Shown here one piece after another: positions 1,921 through 11,579 of a stretch of 11,579 nt of DNA. The translations under genes were made by a program, and so were the position numbers. Each line of letters opens with the position of its first letter. Position 1 is the stretch's first letter. The notes under the pieces are model-generated. The model saw only the letters and a program-made list of their open reading frames with translations, made no database searches and was not told the origin of the DNA. The stretch is from Blastocatellia bacterium (lineage in GTDB: Bacteria; Acidobacteriota; Blastocatellia; Pyrinomonadales; Pyrinomonadaceae): assembly GCA_003175865.1 (NCBI GenBank), contig PSRF01000421.1, positions 1-11,579 of the forward strand, read 5' to 3'.

Positions 1921-4365
1921 CTACGTCTCAGCGCTCCAGTTCGGAAGATTTAACTGACGCAGCACATCTAAAAACCGGGCATCCGCCCGCAGCTTGTAAT
2001 ATTGAGGCCAACATCGACCAATCATCACAAAAAGTGGATCTTTGACCTCATTAGCTTGTTGTGCGAAACCAATTGCACGATCGCGTTCGCCTGCTGCATC
2101 AGCGGCTATGATCATCATTGCAGGCTGGATGTACTCGCGAACATTTCTGGCTTCAAGTTCGGCGTAGACTGCTTTTGCTTTTTCAGGTTTGTTCCAATTG
2201 TCATAAATCGATGCCAGCGTTGTAAGCGCCCAACTGTGACGTCCCGACATCGCGACCGCTTCTTCTGCCACCGCCGCCGCTTCCTGATAATCGCCAACAC
2301 CTTGAAGTGCGACCGAAAGACTCCACCTGGCGAGATATGACTGTGAATCAAGTTCGACGCCACGGCGAGCGTGTTCGAGCGCTTCAGAAAATTGATTACT
2401 GCTGGAGCAGTAAAACGAGAAGATTACGTGCGCGTAAGCTGACAATGGGTCGATTTGAATCGCGCGCCAGAGTTCCTCTCGCGCCTCCTCTTCGCGTCCA
2501 GAGACCCACTGCAGGAAAAAGAGACCATACCAGGCAATGGCTTGAGGGTAGCTTGGGTTGAGTCTTAATGCCGCCTTGAACTCTTTCTCAGCAAGTTCAA
2601 AGTTTCTGTCGTACAACAACGTCGCACACGCGAAGGCGTTATGTGCTTCCGCAAGATTCGAGTCCAGATCGAGCGCACGTCGCGCGGCTTCCAACGCTCC
2701 AGGCATTAGGTCGATGGCCGGTTTGAAACCTGAGTAAGCGCAGGTTGTATAACCGTCAGCCAAACCTGCCCACGCTTGTGCATAAGAAGGATCGATCGCG
2801 ACGGCTTCCTTGAAGCATTCAATCGCTCTCGCGATGCTGAGACCACGTTGGTACAGTAAGCTCCGACCTTTCAGATACAGTTCGAATGCAGCGATATGCT
2901 TCGTTGGAGGTTGTGCTGTTTCGACTCCTTCATCCGCATCGAGCGACAGTTGAAGTCGTTCGGCGATTGTCGCGGCAATCTCATCCTGCACGCTGAACAC
3001 GTCTTCAATAACTCGATCATACCGCTCGGACCAGAGTTGATATCCCGTGCTCGCGTCGATGAGTTGAGAAGTGATCCTTAGTCGATTTCCAGCACGGCGA
3101 ACTGTGCCCTCGAGAATACTGGATACACTGAGTTTTGCTCCGACCGAGCGAAGATCTTCGTTACGGCCTTTGAATGAGAACGACGAACTTCTTCCCGCTA
3201 CACGAAGTCCTGAGATTTGTGCAAGGGCGTTAATAATCTCTTCAGTAATCCCGTCAGCAAAAAACTCTTGCTCTGGATCACATGAAAGATTCTGAAAAGG
3301 AAGGACTGCAATTGTCTTGAGCAAGGCGCTTAGCGAATCGCGGCTTGTGCTTGTTGGTTGCGACGCAGTATTAGCCGATAGTGACTTCGCTGGTTCTGAA
3401 TCAGTCGACGTTTCCAGCTCACGTCTCAAGTCCTTTAGCTCGATCGCAACTTCCTTTATCGACTGGTAGCGCGACTCAGGATCTTTTGCGAGACAACGTC
3501 GAATGATTCGTTGCAGATCGGCGGGTGCTGACGGGTTCACATCTTTAACCAACGGAGCTGGTTCATAGATCAGTTTGTGGAGAGATTGGACTATGGAATC
3601 CCCTTCGAACGGTTTTTGTTTTGTTGCTGCCTCGAATAACACGCAACCAAACGAAAAGATATCCGAACGATGATCGATCTCGGCAGTTTTTCCTTGAGCC
3701 TGCTCCGGTGACATATACCCCGGACTGCCCATGATGAGACCTGGGGAAGTAAGCGACGGGGAAACTGAGGGACGGGAAGCGGGAGGGACGCGGAGACCGG
3801 GAGACGCGGCGATCAGGGTGTCAAGGTCATCTCCATGTCCGTGTAACGACACGTCGCCGCAACTCCCTGACTCCGCTTCGCCCCGTCCCTCCACTAGCTT
3901 CGCTAAACCAAAGTCGAGGATTTTTGCGTGACCATCATTTGTGACCATGATGTTGTCAGGTTTGAGATCACGGTGGACGATTCCAGCGCTGTGCGCCTTT
4001 GCCAACCCTTCAGCCGCATGTTGCAGATATCGCAACAACTTCCCTAAGTTGCCTTGTTCGTTATGAATCTTCTCGCGGAGCGTCACGCCCTCTATGAATT
4101 CCATCGCGATGAAATGCGTTCCTTCCCATTCACTAATTTCATAGATATGGGCGATGTTAGGATGATTGAGTGCCGCGGCAGATTTCGCTTCTCGAATAAA
4201 GCGATCCATGCGATCGGCTTTGGAAGCAACATCAGCCGGTAACATCTTCAGAGCAACTTTCCGATCAAGCTTCGTGTCCTCGGCCAGATAAACTTCACCC
4301 ATTCCGCCCTGGCCAAGCTTTGAAACGATGCGATAGTGAGACAGCGTTGTATTCGGAATTAACAT
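1921..4365 (-). CDS. Soluble Ser/Thr protein kinase with TolB/FlgO-like domain and C-terminal TPRs (814 aa)
   Basis: Cytoplasmic Hanks-type kinase, probably a signalling hub that binds partners through TPRs. The kinase domain covers about 11-315: glycine loop GQGGMGEVYLA (18-28), Lys40 in VALK, HRDLKPDN with Asp133, DFG at 151-153, and GSPGYMSPEQ (213-222). An unusually long activation-loop insert (about 159-205), rich in Ser, Pro and Gly, is encoded by a palindromic DNA segment. A linker leads to a TolB/FlgO-like domain (about 350-480: IAVLPFQNLS, FFADGITEEII, ILEGTVRRAGNRLRI, QLWSERYDR). TPR-like repeats run from about 495 to 790 (for example AIECFKEAVAIDPSYAQAW and AEKEFKAALRLNPSYPQA). No membrane helix is seen between the kinase and TolB-like regions, unlike the sister kinase at 1-1319. 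The ATG at 4365 fits the conserved family start (SHYRIVSKLGQGGMG); its ribosome site is weak. First gene of the leftward operon. Confidence 0.95.
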   Translation of the reverse strand: MLIPNTTLSHYRIVSKLGQGGMGEVYLAEDTKLDRKVALKMLPADVASKADRMDRFIREAKSAAALNHPNIAHIYEISEWEGTHFIAMEFIEGVTLREKIHNEQGNLGKLLRYLQHAAEGLAKAHSAGIVHRDLKPDNIMVTNDGHAKILDFGLAKLVEGRGEAESGSCGDVSLHGHGDDLDTLIAASPGLRVPPASRPSVSPSLTSPGLIMGSPGYMSPEQAQGKTAEIDHRSDIFSFGCVLFEAATKQKPFEGDSIVQSLHKLIYEPAPLVKDVNPSAPADLQRIIRRCLAKDPESRYQSIKEVAIELKDLRRELETSTDSEPAKSLSANTASQPTSTSRDSLSALLKTIAVLPFQNLSCDPEQEFFADGITEEIINALAQISGLRVAGRSSSFSFKGRNEDLRSVGAKLSVSSILEGTVRRAGNRLRITSQLIDASTGYQLWSERYDRVIEDVFSVQDEIAATIAERLQLSLDADEGVETAQPPTKHIAAFELYLKGRSLLYQRGLSIARAIECFKEAVAIDPSYAQAWAGLADGYTTCAYSGFKPAIDLMPGALEAARRALDLDSNLAEAHNAFACATLLYDRNFELAEKEFKAALRLNPSYPQAIAWYGLFFLQWVSGREEEAREELWRAIQIDPLSAYAHVIFSFYCSSSNQFSEALEHARRGVELDSQSYLARWSLSVALQGVGDYQEAAAVAEEAVAMSGRHSWALTTLASIYDNWNKPEKAKAVYAELEARNVREYIQPAMMIIAADAAGERDRAIGFAQQANEVKDPLFVMIGRCWPQYYKLRADARFLDVLRQLNLPNWSAET
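3767..3891. repeat. GC-rich imperfect inverted repeat inside kinase activation-loop codons
   Basis: GAGGGACGGGAAGCGGGAG at 3767-3785 is nearly the reverse complement of 3871-3891 (two-base indel). The pairing continues inward with mismatches to GCGGCGA (3806-3812) against TCGCCGC (3854-3860), leaving a loop of about 41 bases. The whole element stays in frame and encodes the Ser/Pro/Gly-rich insert between DFG and MSPEQ. The purine-rich GGGAGGGACGCGGAGACCGG composition is unlike the flanking kinase codons and suggests a small palindromic repeat element. Confidence 0.6.
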
Positions 4366-5119: not shown

Positions 5120-7519
5120 ATGGTAGAAGGTAATCTAGAAGCCCGGATAATAGACTTCGCCAAGGCTGTGTGTGGAGCGGGAGATTACCGCTCCGCACTC
5201 TCGATAGTGGCCTCGGAAATTTCTCGCCGAGTTAGAGCGGAGAATGTCCTTATCTGGCTCTATGCGGATGATAAGACGTTGTACAGGGAAGCGACACGGC
5301 TGAGTACGTTAAGCAACAATGCAGTGCGCGACGTTGTATTCGCTGACTCCCCGATTATTCGTCGAGCCATAGAGTCCAATTCAACCCAACTAATTGGCCC
5401 TTACAATGCACCACCGGAATCTACGGTTATCGAAGGAACGGCGGTTAACTCTGAGCTAGTTGTACCGCTCAGTGACCGCTCGCGGAACATCGGATTAGTC
5501 GAAGCAATAAACTTAAATAAGGACTCAACCGGTTTCGATGCTGGGGACGCGTCGCTACTACAAATACTTGCGAACCTCTCGTCTGTCGCAATCGTCGCCC
5601 GTCGAGAACAAGAGCAGCTCAGCTCAGGAATGCTCCATGCGGTAAGCAGACTCACTCAACTGTACGACATTAGCCAATCCTTCAATTCAACTATCGATCT
5701 GGCAGAACTCTTTCCCATTATCTGCAATCGAACCGCGACCGTCATTGACGCGGAATCCAGCAGTTTGTGGCTGGTGGAGAAGCAAGAAATGGTGTGCCGG
5801 GAAGTATACGGTCGTTATCGACGCGAATTGATCGGCCACGCGGAGACTGATGCTGGCACCGTCGTTGGCGAAACACTCCGTGACAACGCTCCACTGTTAA
5901 TTAGTAGCCCATCCGACTCTCGACTCGCTCAGAGAATTGCCCACCTCGCTAGTGGCAATATTGAGTCGCTCATTTGCACCCCTGTTAAGTATGACAACAA
6001 GTGGCTAGGTGTACTTGAAGTCATTAACAAGAGGGCAGGCGGAAAATTTGGTCAATCGGAAGTAGACCTCCTGGTCGAAATCGCCGCGCAAGCCGCAAGT
6101 TCAATACGTAATGCGCAGCGTCATGAAGCTGAGCGCAAGGTTAAGGAGTTACAAGCCCTTCTCAATACTAGTCGCGAAATAATTTCGTCGTTGGATCTCG
6201 ATCGTGTTCTTGCCGTCGTTGTAAACCAGGTTGCCACAATCATTCCCTTTGATGTTTGTGCCATCGCCCTGGTGACTAAGGGTGAATATGAAATCAACGC
6301 AATCGCTGGCGAAACAGAGGTTAATGAGAAGGATCCAAAGGTTAAGCAATTGAATGAAATCATGAACTGGGCTGGTCAGTCGGAAGCGGAAGTCTACGTC
6401 TCTGAAGTAAATGACGAGATCGACTCGTCACGACCAGAAACTGTTGCCAAGTTCAAACATCATTTTGAAGCAAGCGGAATGAAAAGTTTCTATGCCTTAC
6501 CGCTTACGGATGAAGAAGGCCCACTTGGATTGCTAGCACTCGAAAGTAAGACTCCTCGATTCCTGACACAGGCACATTTAGAGTTGTTAAAGATTTTTGC
6601 AGGTCAAGCAACAGTCGCGATTCGCAATGCACAGCTCTATCGTCAAGTTCCATTGATAGGGGCACTGCAGCCGTTGGCAGCAAAGAAACGAGCCTTTCAG
6701 GCGATGCCCAAATTTAAACGTTTGGCGTTAATTGGCGGCATCGCTGCTGTGTTAGTGATTCTCATTCTTGTCCCACTTAATTTGAAGGTCTCAGGAAGCG
6801 CTTATGTGATGCCGACACGCACTGCAACAGTCGACGCTGAAGTTGATGGCATAATTGACCAAATCAATTTTCGTGAGGGCGATTTAGTTCCTGCAGGCGC
6901 GGTTGTCGCCGTTCTACGTGCTGATGAGCATCTGCTCAACCTGAATCAGGCGAAGGCTCGTTACGACATCCTTGCTCGCGAGATAACTCGATCACAAGCG
7001 GCTTCCGGTGCTGCAGCGGCGCAAATAGAAAGAGTCAAACTCGATCAAGCGCAGCGCGAGATTGGTCTATACCAGACTAAGCTCGAACAGACCCAAGTTA
7101 GAGCACCTATAGCCGGCGTTATAGTCACCCCTCGACTGGAAGAGAAACGCGGCCGATTCATTAAACGAGGCGAAGCTTTTTGCGAAGAGGCCAATGTCAA
7201 CCCAATCATCGTGGAAATTGCCGTTTCTGAATCAGACATTGGACTAGTGAAGCCCGGCCAGGAGATCTGGATAAAGGCGAATGCCTTCCCTGAACGTAAG
7301 TTCATCGGCAAGGTGACACGAATTAGTCCTCAGGCAAGCCTGGAACAAGACGAACGGGTTTTTATTGTGCGGGGGGAAGTTGAAAACACAAGTCAGGATT
7401 TGCGCACCGGCATGCTTGGTCGGGCCAAAATACTGACTGGTTCGCGAAGCATCGGTTTCGTATTGCTTCGTGATCCTGCGCGTTGGTTGCAAAAAAAGAT
7501 CTGGAACTGGATGCCTTAG
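5120..7519 (+). CDS. Triple-GAF sensor fused to a membrane-anchored HlyD-type adaptor (799 aa)
   Basis: Three GAF-type sensor regions occupy about residues 10-170, 180-335 and 345-510; each ends in the helix typical of the fold (LLQILANLSSVAIVARRE, LLVEIAAQAASSIRNAQ, LLKIFAGQATVAIRNAQ). A basic stretch and one membrane helix (about 535-553, ALIGGIAAVLVILILVPL) lead into a HlyD/barrel-sandwich adaptor (about 555-799): first lipoyl half DAEVDGIIDQINFREGDLVPAG, a short coiled coil (NLNQAKARYDILAREI onward), second half VRAPIAGVIVTP, then a beta-barrel region. Topology should be GAF in the cytoplasm and adaptor in the periplasm, so an internal ligand or redox/nucleotide signal may be passed to a trans-envelope machine; the ligand is unknown. 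The protein ends WLQKKIWNWMP, much like the end of the M50 fusion downstream. GGGA about nine bases before the ATG is a modest ribosome site. First gene of a three-gene operon, 37 bases before the next. Confidence 0.92.
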   Translation: MVEGNLEARIIDFAKAVCGAGDYRSALSIVASEISRRVRAENVLIWLYADDKTLYREATRLSTLSNNAVRDVVFADSPIIRRAIESNSTQLIGPYNAPPESTVIEGTAVNSELVVPLSDRSRNIGLVEAINLNKDSTGFDAGDASLLQILANLSSVAIVARREQEQLSSGMLHAVSRLTQLYDISQSFNSTIDLAELFPIICNRTATVIDAESSSLWLVEKQEMVCREVYGRYRRELIGHAETDAGTVVGETLRDNAPLLISSPSDSRLAQRIAHLASGNIESLICTPVKYDNKWLGVLEVINKRAGGKFGQSEVDLLVEIAAQAASSIRNAQRHEAERKVKELQALLNTSREIISSLDLDRVLAVVVNQVATIIPFDVCAIALVTKGEYEINAIAGETEVNEKDPKVKQLNEIMNWAGQSEAEVYVSEVNDEIDSSRPETVAKFKHHFEASGMKSFYALPLTDEEGPLGLLALESKTPRFLTQAHLELLKIFAGQATVAIRNAQLYRQVPLIGALQPLAAKKRAFQAMPKFKRLALIGGIAAVLVILILVPLNLKVSGSAYVMPTRTATVDAEVDGIIDQINFREGDLVPAGAVVAVLRADEHLLNLNQAKARYDILAREITRSQAASGAAAAQIERVKLDQAQREIGLYQTKLEQTQVRAPIAGVIVTPRLEEKRGRFIKRGEAFCEEANVNPIIVEIAVSESDIGLVKPGQEIWIKANAFPERKFIGKVTRISPQASLEQDERVFIVRGEVENTSQDLRTGMLGRAKILTGSRSIGFVLLRDPARWLQKKIWNWMP

Positions 7520-7546
7520 TTGAATTTGCACTGACAGAAAGATGTT

Positions 7547-7550
7547 GGAG
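7547..7550 (+). promoter_or_regulatory. Ribosome binding site deciding the adaptor start
   Basis: GGAG lies six bases before the ATG at 7557. The earlier in-frame ATG at 7542 lacks a comparable site, so the later start is preferred. Confidence 0.55.
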
Positions 7551-7556
7551 CGGAAA

Positions 7557-8726
7557 ATGTTTCAACCTCGTACTCAGATGTTCGCAGCTCTGCTGCTTGC
7601 AGTCTTCAGCGCTAGTCTGATCGGTTGTGGTGGGAATGCGCAGACGAGCACCTCTCAGGCGGCGACCCAACCTGCGTCAACCGTGGCGCAACCGTTGGAG
7701 GTAAAAGTCTACAACGTTGTTCCATCAGTCGCTCGGGGTGACTTGTTGATTCCAGCGTCGCTTTCAATTGAAGGTGTGGCGGTGACTACCTCTCGGCGCG
7801 ACGGAGTTATCTCTCAACTTTTGGTGAAAGAAGGTTCCAGTGTAACGAAAGGTTCAGTGATTGCACGTCTGAGTGGAGACGAAGAACTGCGAGCTCAACT
7901 TCAGCAGGCAGAGGTGGAACTCGATCGGCTTAAGGTTGAACAAAGTCAATTGGAAGCTTTGATTCGTTTAGATAGAAACGAATTCGAGCGAGAAAAGACT
8001 CTTGCTAAGGATGGACTTTCCAGTCAAAAAGATGTCGAACATGCGCAGTTCAAATTCGAAGCTGCCACCTTGGAACTTGAAAAATCCAAAGTTGCTTCTA
8101 CCGGCGCGCGCGCAAAGATTGATGAAATCAAAGCCGAGCTACAGCGGAGCATAATTACTGCGCCGATATCAGGCATCGTTACTCATCTTTACGTTGAGAT
8201 GGGTTCGAGCATCACGAAGAACGACAAGCTAGTCGAAGTTTCACCAACTTCGCCGCTACAGGTCAAATTTCAAGTACCTCAACCCGAGCGCACTCGGTTG
8301 GCACCAGGTAGCTCAGTGGGCATCTCCCTAATCGACGGAGATTCCATAGTTGCTACTGCTCGAGTGAGTCGAATTCAACCTGTCGCTGATCCCGCAAGCA
8401 ATACTTTCGGTTACGTTGCAGACATTGTTGGTGGGAAGAACTTGTTGCCGGGTCTCGCGGTTAACGTAAGGGTACCCAGATCAGTTTCGGGGCCCAACTT
8501 TCTGGTGCCGCAGTCGGTGTTTCCTGTAATTTCAGAATTTCGCCGCGGCACCGCGGGCACTGTGTTTGTTGTTGAGGGCACAAAGTGCGCAGTCCGCTCA
8601 GTTTGGATCAACGGACTGGAGGGAGATCAGGTCGAGATTGCTTCCGGACTAAGTACCGGTGACCGTGTCATCGTCTCACCACCAACTCAACTTCACGCCG
8701 GCGACCTTGTGGCAGCCAAAAACTAA
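7557..8726 (+). CDS. Lipoprotein periplasmic adaptor of the RND/HlyD type (389 aa)
   Basis: Periplasmic adaptor (membrane fusion protein) anchored by a lipid. The N-terminus has basic residues, a hydrophobic core and a lipobox LIGC, making Cys24 the acylation site, followed by a Ser/Thr/Gln/Ala-rich tether. Next come the first lipoyl half (RRDGVISQLLVKEGSSVTKG, about 80-99), a long alpha-hairpin coiled coil (about 107-197), the second lipoyl half (ITAPISGIVTHLYVEMGSSI, about 199-218), a beta-barrel region (PLQVKFQVPQPERTRLAPG onward) and a membrane-proximal domain with GDQVEIASGLSTGDRVIV. This is the canonical AcrA-like order. The ATG at 7542 would add five residues. Adaptors of this class normally sit beside an RND pump or MacB-like ABC transporter, but neither is adjacent here; it lies between two other adaptor-domain genes (gaps of 37 and 35 bases), which suggests a shared assembly. 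Confidence 0.93.
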   Translation: MFQPRTQMFAALLLAVFSASLIGCGGNAQTSTSQAATQPASTVAQPLEVKVYNVVPSVARGDLLIPASLSIEGVAVTTSRRDGVISQLLVKEGSSVTKGSVIARLSGDEELRAQLQQAEVELDRLKVEQSQLEALIRLDRNEFEREKTLAKDGLSSQKDVEHAQFKFEAATLELEKSKVASTGARAKIDEIKAELQRSIITAPISGIVTHLYVEMGSSITKNDKLVEVSPTSPLQVKFQVPQPERTRLAPGSSVGISLIDGDSIVATARVSRIQPVADPASNTFGYVADIVGGKNLLPGLAVNVRVPRSVSGPNFLVPQSVFPVISEFRRGTAGTVFVVEGTKCAVRSVWINGLEGDQVEIASGLSTGDRVIVSPPTQLHAGDLVAAKN

Positions 8727-8761: not shown

Positions 8762-10984
8762 ATGGATAGGTTTCGCCCAGATCTCAAAATCATTCGACAG
8801 GTACAGCGCGGCGAAGTCTCGTTCATCGTTAAAGATCCCGTTGCACTCAAATACTTTCGTTTTGGAACGCTCGAAGTCTCGTTGTTCAATCTTCTAGACG
8901 GAAGTCGCGACCCCGGTCAGGTAGCTGCGACGCTCTCAGCGGAAACGGGAGTCAACCTCGACGGTGACATGGTGGCATCGTTTGTAGAAGAGTTGAAAAA
9001 AAAGGACCTAATCGAACGCTCTGGAACCGAGAAAAGTCTCGTCATTCTTGAGCGGTTACGCAAACAACGGCAAATCAAAGCGGAGACGGCGTCCGAAGGG
9101 CGAGACACGCTTTACATGCGCTTTCCGTTTTACGATCCGGACGAGCTCTACAACCGAATCATCAAGCACATCGGCTTTCTGTGGTCACGAGAGTTCTTTA
9201 TCTTTTGCCTGCTTCTCTTTTCGCTCGCAGCAATAATCATCATCTCAAATTGGACAAGTGTCAGCTCTGGACTCGCCTATCTTTATTCTTTTCAGGACAA
9301 GGGTCTGCGAGACATCCTGATGCTGGTGGCAGTGCTATTCACTGTTATTGTGCTGCACGAAAACGGTCACGGCCTAACGTGCAAACGGTACGGCGGCGAA
9401 GTTCACGAAATTGGTTTCATGCTGATCTACTTCATGCCTGCGTTTTATGCGAACGTTACCGATACCTGGACCTTTGAAAGTAAGGCGGCAAAACTTTGGG
9501 TCACATTTGCCGGCGCATTCGTCGAACTGATCATATGCTCGATTGCGTCGTTCATTTGGTATTTCTCGACACCTGGTTATTTGACGCACGATTTCGCCTT
9601 CCTCTTCATGATCACGGCAGGGCTGTCATCCATCCTGATCAATATGAATCCGTTGATTAGACTTGATGGGTACTTCGCGCTCGTTGATTACCTCGAGATT
9701 CCCAAGTTAGGTGATGATTCTTCAAAGTATCTCGGGCTGCTTGTCCGCAAATACATTTTCCGTTCGTCGGTACAACTACCCCCTTACGATACAAAACTTA
9801 AACTCATTCTGTTGATCTACGGAATACTTTCGTTCTGTTATCGAATACTGATTCTTACACTTACGCTGCTGTTCTTTAATCGCCAGATTGGGCGGTTGTT
9901 TCCCGAGATGGGGGTTTTCATTTTCCCCTTTGTTGCATATCGCCTTCTCCGAAAGAAACTTCGGGTGGCCTGGTCCAGCATCCATCATTTGTATATTGAT
10001 CGTAAGGAGTGGCTCATGAATCGAAAGAGGTCATTTATTATTGCTGGCGCACTGCTGGTAGCGGCCGGCCTATTTTTCTTTTTACCTCTTCCGTACTCAC
10101 ACCAAGCGTCATTTGTTATTGAGCCGGTGGAATCCGTACCCGTGCGGGCGGAAAGCGATGGGTTTGTGGGTGGTGTAGTCGTTCGGGAAGGTGAATCTGT
10201 CAATCGAGGTACCATGTTGGCGGTGATGCGCGATACCGAGTTAGAACACAGGCTCGATGACCTTCGGACTCAGATTTCGCTTCTTGATCGGAACGTTTTG
10301 ATTCAAAGGGCACATACCAACACCGCAGAAGCTATGGAGGGTGATCGCGAACGTGATGCGCTAAGGCAGGAAATGGCTCAAACTGAATCTCAGCTGGCCA
10401 GTCTAAAAATCACATCACCGGTGGAAGGCATCATCGTTACACCTAACGTGGAAAATAAGTCCGGAAGCTGGCTTCAAAAAGGTGCCGAGCTCTGTCGCGT
10501 AGCTCCGGCTGGAGCTTTACGCGCGCGAATTGTGGTGGATGATTGGGATCTTCGGGATGTGCAAGTTGGATCTTCTGCGTTGTTGAAACTAAATGCGGGT
10601 GGCCCTGAACTTAAAGGACATGTAATCAAACTTGCGCCTGCATCTCAATTACAGCAGCGCCTTTCACCGATAGTACAACTTGAGAAACAAGCTAACTCCG
10701 ACAATCCTTCTGAAAAGATCTTACTCAACAACAGCGAAGGTTCCGGACCAGCTAAAAAGAAGAAGTCAGCAAAAGAGCAGGCGGAATCAGCAGCCGACGA
10801 AGCAACTTCGCCTTACGAGGCACCACTCGTTCGATTTGACGCTTTGGTCGCATTCGATGATTTCAATGCTGCCATCAGACCCGGCATGAGTGGCGACATC
10901 AAGATCTATGGTAAGAAGAGGCCCTTGGCTTTAACTATCGGCGAGGGGTTTCGTGACTGGTTTCGATCAAAAATCTGGTGGTGA
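8762..10984 (+). CDS. PqqD-like domain, M50 zinc metalloprotease and HlyD-like adaptor fusion (740 aa)
   Basis: A putative peptide zinc metalloprotease of the inner membrane. Residues 1-95 look like a PqqD-type winged-helix domain (YFRFGTLEVSLFNLLDGSR, then FVEELKKKDLIERSG), a fold that binds RiPP leader peptides in other systems. The membrane part (about 146-395) carries the M50 zinc motif HENGH (His199, Glu200, His203) and the third ligand in NMNPLIRLDGY (Asp302), so the active site looks intact. A further helix (about 424-443) leads to a periplasmic adaptor part: lipoyl half RAESDGFVGGVVVREGESVNRG, a short coiled coil, second half LKITSPVEGIIVTPN, and a barrel interrupted by a Lys/Ala/Glu-rich insert (about 640-690). 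It ends WFRSKIWW. It may cleave or export a peptide; the convergent repeat ORF is the nearest candidate substrate. No strong ribosome site precedes the ATG. Last gene of the operon. Confidence 0.93.
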   Translation: MDRFRPDLKIIRQVQRGEVSFIVKDPVALKYFRFGTLEVSLFNLLDGSRDPGQVAATLSAETGVNLDGDMVASFVEELKKKDLIERSGTEKSLVILERLRKQRQIKAETASEGRDTLYMRFPFYDPDELYNRIIKHIGFLWSREFFIFCLLLFSLAAIIIISNWTSVSSGLAYLYSFQDKGLRDILMLVAVLFTVIVLHENGHGLTCKRYGGEVHEIGFMLIYFMPAFYANVTDTWTFESKAAKLWVTFAGAFVELIICSIASFIWYFSTPGYLTHDFAFLFMITAGLSSILINMNPLIRLDGYFALVDYLEIPKLGDDSSKYLGLLVRKYIFRSSVQLPPYDTKLKLILLIYGILSFCYRILILTLTLLFFNRQIGRLFPEMGVFIFPFVAYRLLRKKLRVAWSSIHHLYIDRKEWLMNRKRSFIIAGALLVAAGLFFFLPLPYSHQASFVIEPVESVPVRAESDGFVGGVVVREGESVNRGTMLAVMRDTELEHRLDDLRTQISLLDRNVLIQRAHTNTAEAMEGDRERDALRQEMAQTESQLASLKITSPVEGIIVTPNVENKSGSWLQKGAELCRVAPAGALRARIVVDDWDLRDVQVGSSALLKLNAGGPELKGHVIKLAPASQLQQRLSPIVQLEKQANSDNPSEKILLNNSEGSGPAKKKKSAKEQAESAADEATSPYEAPLVRFDALVAFDDFNAAIRPGMSGDIKIYGKKRPLALTIGEGFRDWFRSKIWW
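10004..10018 (+). promoter_or_regulatory. Strong internal Shine-Dalgarno and ATG at the protease/adaptor boundary
   Basis: AAGGAG (10004-10009), six bases, then an in-frame ATG at 10016. Initiation here would give a 322-residue product beginning MNRKRSFIIAGALLV, a basic start plus membrane helix plus the complete adaptor domain. The signal is stronger than that of the gene's own start at 8762. It may be chance, since the codons Lys-Glu necessarily read AARGAR. Confidence 0.3.
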
Positions 10985-10989
10985 TCGAC

Positions 10990-11032
10990 GTGCAAAACAA
11001 AACGAAGGTCCGCTGCAGCGCAACGGACCTTC
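10990..11032 (-). terminator. Intrinsic terminator of the repeat-peptide gene
   Basis: A perfect 9-bp stem, GAAGGTCCG (11004-11012) with CGGACCTTC (11024-11032), encloses an 11-base loop. Read on the minus strand it is followed by GTTTTGTTTTG, a T-rich tail. It lies 27 bases after the stop of the minus-strand repeat ORF. The plus side has no T-run, so it is oriented mainly for the minus gene, although the hairpin may also mark the end of the rightward operon. Confidence 0.75.
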
Positions 11033-11058
11033 TGTAAGTCTATTGACCTCTGAGCTAG

Positions 11059-11496
11059 CTATTCAATCTTCATGGGATTTGCGCGCTCAGTCTCGTTTCC
11101 GCCAATCTGCAGAGGATTTGCACGGTCAGTTTCGGTTCCGCCAATCTGCAGAGGATTTGCACGGTCAGTTTCGGTTCCGCCAATCTGCAGAGGATTTGCT
11201 CGCTCAGTTTCGGTTCCAATTGAAAATGGGTTGGCCCGGCTGGTCTCTTCATTTCCACCCACAGCCAATGGGTTAGCGCGCAGGGTCTCCTGGCTTACAG
11301 GCGCCAACGGATTGGCACGCTCATCTTCTCTAGCAAACGACAACGGATTTGCGCGGGCGCTTTCTTCAGCTCCTACGGCTAACGGGTTTGCACGATCGTC
11401 GACCGTTCCCACCTTCAATTCCGTGATGTCTTTTCCAGTCGCAGCCTTAACTTGACGGCGCTGATCTTCAGTAAGAGTAATGGTTACTTCTTTCAT
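11059..11496 (-). CDS. Repeat peptide with nine RANP units; candidate multi-core precursor (145 aa)
   Basis: I do not recognise a named family. Residues 1-34 form a charged, leader-like region (MKEVTITLTEDQRRQVKAAT, then GKDITELKVG). From residue 35 there are nine units of 12-14 residues beginning RANP (RANPL seven times, RANPF and RANPM once each), separated by acidic Thr/Ser/Glu/Asp-rich spacers such as GGTETD; the last unit is cut to RANPMKIE. There are no Cys, Trp, Tyr or His residues. Start: AAGGAG at 11503-11508, six bases before the ATG, is the best ribosome site in the window, and an intrinsic terminator follows the stop. It converges with the M50/HlyD operon, whose PqqD-like domain makes a leader-peptide substrate plausible. 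Alternatives are a secreted or scaffold repeat protein, or a multi-site kinase substrate. No secretion signal is seen. Confidence 0.8.
   Translation of the reverse strand: MKEVTITLTEDQRRQVKAATGKDITELKVGTVDDRANPLAVGAEESARANPLSFAREDERANPLAPVSQETLRANPLAVGGNEETSRANPFSIGTETERANPLQIGGTETDRANPLQIGGTETDRANPLQIGGNETERANPMKIE
11076..11228. repeat. Tandem 39-bp repeats within the repeat-peptide gene
   Basis: Units begin with GATTTG at 11076, 11115, 11154 and 11193. The units at 11115-11153 and 11154-11192 are identical over 39 bases; the unit at 11076-11114 differs at four bases; the fourth diverges after its first half. Each encodes one 13-residue RANPLQIGG-type unit, while the more upstream codon repeats (11229-11400) have drifted. 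This indicates recent in-frame duplication at the 3' end of the gene. Confidence 0.9.
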
Positions 11497-11579
11497 CGCG
11501 ATCTCCTTATTGTGGATTGATGAGAATCGAACACGATCTCCAGGTGATCTCTCTTCAGCAACAATCGGGCCAAACCAAC
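11497..11579 (-). other. Upstream edge of the repeat-peptide gene
   Basis: Too short to call a gene. Two minus-strand frames are open to the edge: one in phase with the repeat ORF, and one that ends in a TGA overlapping its ATG as ATGA, the geometry of a coupled upstream gene. No clear promoter boxes are seen. Whether the repeat gene has its own promoter or follows another gene cannot be decided here. Confidence 0.4.
11503..11508 (-). promoter_or_regulatory. Ribosome binding site of the repeat-peptide gene
   Basis: The minus strand reads AAGGAG, six bases before the ATG at 11496. It fixes the start of the repeat ORF even though the same frame stays open to the window edge. Confidence 0.75.

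Follow-up and report, generated by a model that had tools for sequence, protein, structure and literature searches.

The 11,579-bp stretch of Blastocatellia bacterium DNA analyzed here (the window) is the whole of contig PSRF01000421.1, from an incomplete source genome (62%), and carries at its right end a gene for a 145-residue protein with a conserved leader and nine RANP repeat units. This gene is convergent with one for a 740-residue fusion of a PqqD-like domain, an M50 protease and an HlyD part, and the pairing of leader and fusion, which recurs across Acidobacteriota, is not due to chance. On balance, we favor a reading in which a small export module has the repeat protein as its own dedicated substrate; the leader would guide the export of this hypervariable, low-complexity protein, and the tail would serve as a surface or matrix polymer. 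The features on which the argument turns are as follows.

11,059–11,496, minus strand: repeat peptide gene, 145 residues (open reading frame [ORF] list, homologues, codon comparison).
11,395–11,496, minus strand: leader of the repeat peptide, about residues 1–34 (homologue conservation and structure model).
Within 11,062–11,394, minus strand: nine RANP units, at residues 35, 48, 60, 73, 87, 99, 112, 125 and 138 (read in the translation).
11,557–11,572, minus strand: predicted sigma-54 −24/−12-like site TGGCCCGATTGTTGCT, agreeing with the consensus TGGCACGN4TTGCW at 11 of 12 positions.
11,004–11,032, minus strand: terminator-like stem-loop of the repeat gene with a 13-pair stem, between the convergent genes (2 such sites in the stretch versus 0.9 expected).
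8762–10,984, plus strand: PqqD-like–M50–HlyD fusion, 740 residues (domain matches and motifs).
8762–9019, plus strand: domain with a predicted RRE (RiPP recognition element) fold, fusion residues 1–86 (predicted structure; RiPP, ribosomally synthesized and post-translationally modified peptide).
9356–9370, plus strand: HExxH motif of the M50 part, HENGH, residues 199–203 (motif reading).
10,406–10,666, plus strand: HlyD_3 match, residues 549–635 (Pfam).

The repeat ORF, its nine units and its placement, as described in the initial annotation, were confirmed by the ORF list and translation. It looks like a real gene because its homologues conserve the leader, its RANP codons vary, and it has a terminator-like stem and a sigma-54-like site. 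No Pfam or NCBIfam match was obtained at E ≤ 1, and 35 homologues were found at E ≤ 0.01, one of them named Pyrinomonadaceae; most relatives of the RANP type are metagenome derived. The same RANP residues are written with different codons across the units. The sigma-54-like site lies 76 bp upstream of the start and is the sole position scoring at least 10 among the 23,128 in the window. In the structure model, the leader is predicted to form a strand-helix-strand, and the tail is modeled with low confidence (predicted local distance difference test, pLDDT, about 51–62). A class-wide search of 162 genomes returned only the window's own gene, and such leaders are therefore rare in the sampled close kin. 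No description of this peptide family, nor of RANP repeats, was found in a search of open-licence papers.

A profile of the leader (class 1, consensus near VTIKLTDEQRxQIKxATGxD..ELKV) matched 9 of 396 Acidobacteriota genomes, of which eight were retained after the match in G194 proved spurious on reading. These eight belong to eight different families and all carry the fusion. In a separate search with the fusion, which matched 24 of 297 genomes, these same eight scored highest; the probability of this agreement by chance is 5e-10, uncorrected for relatedness. At six loci (the window, L015, L017, L021, L022 and L023), the peptide gene is convergent to the fusion on one contig. In G026, G055 and G192, the two lie on separate contigs, each ending near the gene, and the fusion contig of G192 terminates within SGKSL/M repeats resembling those of its own peptide. 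A scan of genome contigs gave no match with the whole peptide as query and two with the leader profile. Matches in G225 and G030 were rejected as chance, in one case after its open frames had been read (L004) and in the other from a row with seven internal stops alone (L005). Even at low thresholds, a convincing leader was lacking from eight lower-scoring fusion loci (L059–L061, L063–L067); as four of these contigs are shorter than 10 kb, the absence of a neighbor says little. At the peptide position of L062 in genome G071 (9863–9964, minus strand) lies a 34-residue, Lys-rich basic ORF without repeats, with a sigma-54-like site 242 bp upstream, which was not counted. Two proteins, L016 7388–7600 (plus strand) and P0118, have a class-1-like leader followed by a LSEEQLDEAVGG or LSEKELDNAAGG stretch and resemble double-glycine precursors. 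In P0117, a 49-residue class-1-like leader precedes ELEDRVAPA, a sequence similar both to LEDRANP of the RANP units and to the LEPR motif found in plasmid-encoded giant proteins.

A second leader type (class 2, MxxQKKSL...KK) occupies the same place beside the fusion at six Acidobacteriota loci of family f14, and also in G155 and G163. The six loci keep the window's gene order of GAF-HlyD, adaptor and fusion, and f14 is probably Acidobacteriaceae because class-2 proteins carry the names Tunturibacter and Edaphobacter. Among 120 f14 genomes, the leader was found in 24 (25 hits), the fusion in 27 (29 places) and both in 23 (P = 1.5e-19, uncorrected). Convergent placement on the same contig was seen for 22 of the 25 leader hits; in G530 and G562, leader and fusion lie on different contigs. 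Seven fusion places lacked a profile hit on the same contig: three, one in G522 and both in G569, have a convergent KKSL-type peptide (L115, L110, L128), and the other four (G530, G562, G607, G273) lie 58–271 bp from a contig end. All 25 fusion places away from contig ends have a convergent class-2 peptide. The genetic tie between a leader-plus-repeats protein and the fusion, as first proposed from the window, is thus borne out by co-occurrence in both classes and by convergent placement. Two complete peptide-fusion pairs are present in each of G590 (L100, L129) and G569 (L110, L128), and the repeats differ between the G569 pairs.

Between species, the leader is conserved, whereas the tail is hypervariable and mostly tandem repeat. 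Over 28 class-2 sequences, the ungapped mean identity is 0.59 for 16 leader residues versus 0.105 for 30 tail residues. Class-1 tails are of the RANP, SALASK, AAKGLK, SGKSL, SAKSMR and AAPRNAAAK types. When the commonest unit string was compared among 34 peptides from the two classes (L129, a 35th, was left out), no two peptides shared it; several of the strings are near-variants, and two occur once only. Selection acts on the sequence of the repeat protein: codons one period apart in the 34 peptides comprise 1123 identical pairs, 741 synonymous and 527 nonsynonymous differences, and strong arrays are near-purely synonymous (synonymous:nonsynonymous 51:1 in L107, 37:4 in L084 and 51:5 in L095). 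Units such as GGFQGP, GGLQGG and ADAGSM (L096, L113, L095) may resemble silk- or elastin-like material.

Alternatively, such arrays might, like pheromone precursors of the multi-copy kind, yield a short species-specific pheromone or antagonist in many copies, the M50 protease making or starting the cuts. Many arrays have units of 4–8 residues in up to about 20 near-perfect copies, the units vary by species while the leaders stay, and the HExxH motif is intact in 23 of 24 aligned fusion rows. However, no cleavage motif was found that unrelated units have in common, M50 enzymes typically cleave close to membranes, no receptor was identified, and the RANP units are long and degenerate. We consider this explanation unlikely, if worth keeping in mind.

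In Pfam, the fusion matches HlyD_3 (E = 4.6e-11) and Peptidase_M50 (E = 5.3e-6; 26.4 bits, slightly below the 27.2 cut-off), and the M50 motifs HENGH and NMNPLIRLDG are intact. The PqqD-M50-HlyD composition assigned initially is confirmed; the PqqD match is weak by sequence (E = 0.078), and an RRE fold, a fold that binds RiPP leaders, is predicted for the N terminus by structure modeling. Two further genes belong to the same module as the fusion, and two kinase genes lie to its left.

5120–7519, plus strand: GAF-HlyD protein, 799 residues, with three GAF stretches and a C-terminal HlyD part (domain matches; relatives in 15 of 15 genomes).
7542–8726, plus strand: RND-type periplasmic adaptor, 394 residues (TIGR01730, 168.6 bits, above cut-off).
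3–1319 and 1921–4365, minus strand: two Ser/Thr kinase genes, one with TPR repeats (domain matches).

Gene neighbors were compared in 15 genomes over stretches of 5–20 kb containing many shadow frames, and only recognized genes were listed. The common neighbors are GAF-HlyD (15), the fusion (15), the adaptor (at least 13), a STAS protein (10) and a PrsK-like kinase (about 7). The predicted RRE fold, the leader-plus-repeats layout and a score of 183.8 bits against the NCBIfam daptide protease model NF041824 (cut-off 300) are what a multi-core RiPP could display, each repeat being a core destined for crosslinking or some other modification before cutting and export. The score against the YydH/LiaK epipeptide protease model NF058609, 52 bits, also misses its cut-off (225). 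The crosslinked form of this proposal, advanced in the initial annotation, is not supported because no maturase was recognized among genes common to at least three of the 15 genomes, those encoded elsewhere not having been searched for. The tails are also nearly devoid of Cys, which is absent from 18 tails and from 20 of 22 further class-2 tails, the remaining two having one each. The Thr, Glu and Asp thought to suit crosslinking are present in RANP-type tails, the window's included, but make up only 0%–20% of the 22 class-2 tails; crosslink chemistry may be conceivable for the RANP subtype alone. Overall, a multi-core RiPP appears improbable.

With a criterion of at least 9 of 12 positions and GG and GC in place, a sigma-54-like site was found 44–89 bp upstream of 17 of 18 peptides, the miss being L016; 14 sites score at least 10, and those of L015, L018 and L021 score 9. 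As controls, a score of 9 was reached by 5.0% of random 100-bp stretches and by 18 of 269 other ORF starts, and a score of 10 by 0.67% and 2 of 269, respectively. Such a site also precedes 19 of 22 further class-2 peptides (L096, L107 and L113 score 8). The sigma-54 gene is present in all 15 genomes, and an NtrC-type regulator lies near the module in 14; the window contig stops short of that place. Against the PrsR model TIGR02915 (cut-off 502.6, which none reach), the regulators score 417.9 (L019), 459.7 (L020), 341.1 (L057) and 472.2 bits (L023). STAS proteins cluster with the module (L023 9163–9504 and L054 13,504–13,884, both plus strand), and L020 has an FHA-GAF-SpoIIE protein (6003–7697, plus strand), hinting at partner-switching control.

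These signaling genes (GAF, PrsR/PrsK-like, STAS and, in L020, FHA-GAF-SpoIIE) would suit a circuit of regulated proteolysis in which the peptide stays inside the cell and the M50 protease either cleaves it or is inhibited by it; by eye, neither a Sec signal nor a membrane segment is obvious in the peptide. We give this little credence: hypervariable repeat tails are unexpected for a regulator, the HlyD parts and the adaptor indicate the envelope, and plasmid relatives of the fusion adjoin giant genes. The early suggestion of a multi-site kinase substrate is not supported, as neither of the window's kinase genes belongs to the neighbors common to the compared loci.

Export guided by the leader and the RRE domain is, we infer, the most economical reading. 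An NtrC/PrsR-type sigma-54 activator would turn the peptide gene on, and the conserved N-terminal leader would bind to the RRE domain with which the fusion begins. The membrane-embedded M50 part and the HlyD part, together with the GAF-HlyD protein and the RND-type adaptor, would then carry the tail across the envelope, the leader perhaps being clipped during passage, and the exported tail would act as a repeat polymer, a surface or matrix material. The fixed front end, the species-varying tail and the constant protease-adaptor neighbor in soil Acidobacteriota suggest an export system that has received little study and whose product changes fast. More tentatively, this may be an undescribed Acidobacteriota export route for RRE-recognized leader proteins, whose species-hypervariable tails, kept uniform within arrays by selection, might be identity tags, pheromones or a silk-like matrix.

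Several observations weigh against export of this kind. The best Foldseek E-value for the RRE fold is 1.2e-3, with none below 1e-3; the two leaders look unrelated, and one domain family would have to read both. No conserved ATPase was found in the acidobacterial loci. The tails of L022 and L023 are not repetitive, and codon differences between the window's own units are mostly nonsynonymous (14 synonymous versus 53 not) because these units differ outside RANP. L016, a weaker leader relative that has a GG motif, comes from a genome without the fusion (G511), and in G554 a class-2 peptide is present and the genome search found no fusion. These two are homologues without an M50/HlyD locus, named at the outset as grounds for refutation. 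If export is correct, proteins for export would join modified peptides as targets of RRE leader recognition. In any case, leaders that are conserved while their species-specific arrays are kept under selection need explaining, as recognition, signaling or material.

Graspetide and cyanobactin precursors likewise have a leader plus repeated units, with an RRE-type domain encoded next door. Unlike these systems, no conserved maturase was recognized here, the tails are nearly Cys free, and the units are different in nearly every species. The epipeptide protease EpeP/YydH, which is thought to cleave and export, and the pearlin protease TglG are M50 enzymes of RiPP pathways (PMC10885120). Like the fusion, these enzymes and the daptide protease (the last by its NCBIfam name only) pair an M50 protease with a leader- or scaffold-bearing peptide; the fusion differs in its HlyD part, the absence of a recognized maturase and the missed NCBIfam cut-offs. 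In the PEP-CTERM/EpsH system (PMC1569441), probable exported proteins have sigma-54 −24/−12 sites and a PrsR/PrsK pair. A similar regulator and kinase and sigma-54-like sites occur in the acidobacterial loci, but the leader of the substrate here is N-terminal, no sorting tail was recognized, the machinery is M50-HlyD, and the PrsR cut-off is missed (best 472.2 of 502.6).

The closest likeness is to the locus of a secondary SecA, GAF-HlyD and M50-HlyD for which secretion was proposed with M50 as a possible pore, its broader role being called completely unknown (Kamneva, Poudel and Ward, 2015; PMC4452313). In both, GAF-HlyD, M50-HlyD and HlyD adaptor genes lie together with no ABC (ATP-binding cassette) transporter, and the window's GAF-HlyD, adaptor and fusion form such a gene set. 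Some of the 2015 loci also include an outer-membrane channel (OEP/TolC). Nine plasmid records match the fusion, and the picture from the six examined (L069–L072, L075, L076) fits this locus type. In L070, the fusion is 27% identical to the window's over 596 residues, and GAF-HlyD (E = 1e-17) and the adaptor (E = 2e-10) also match. GAF-HlyD and a SecA-like protein were confirmed by Pfam in L069 and L070; Pfam gave no PqqD match in the L071 fusion and no GAF in its HlyD neighbor. Upstream of the fusion, the alphaproteobacterial plasmids L070, L071, L075 and L076 have an annotated gene of 12.1–38.8 kb (LEPR-XLL twice, DUF4347, calcium-binding) and L069 an open frame of 1941 codons; L072 is without annotation. 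These giant proteins may be substrates of the plasmid branch. A LEPR/IEPR motif lies near the start in three of the four whose start was read; its likeness to LEDRANP was noted by eye, without statistics, and is not used as evidence. Two differences set the acidobacterial loci apart. Most genomes tested lack the second SecA (one SecA in 12 of 15, two complementary fragments in G192, two in G071 and none found in the incomplete G000), and a small repeat peptide gene lies beside the fusion; the words Acidobacteria, PqqD and LEPR do not occur in the main text of Kamneva et al. (2015). The M50-HlyD/GAF-HlyD locus type, of unknown role, thereby gains a candidate substrate family whose members are small, easily cloned and found in named Acidobacteriaceae (Tunturibacter, Edaphobacter).
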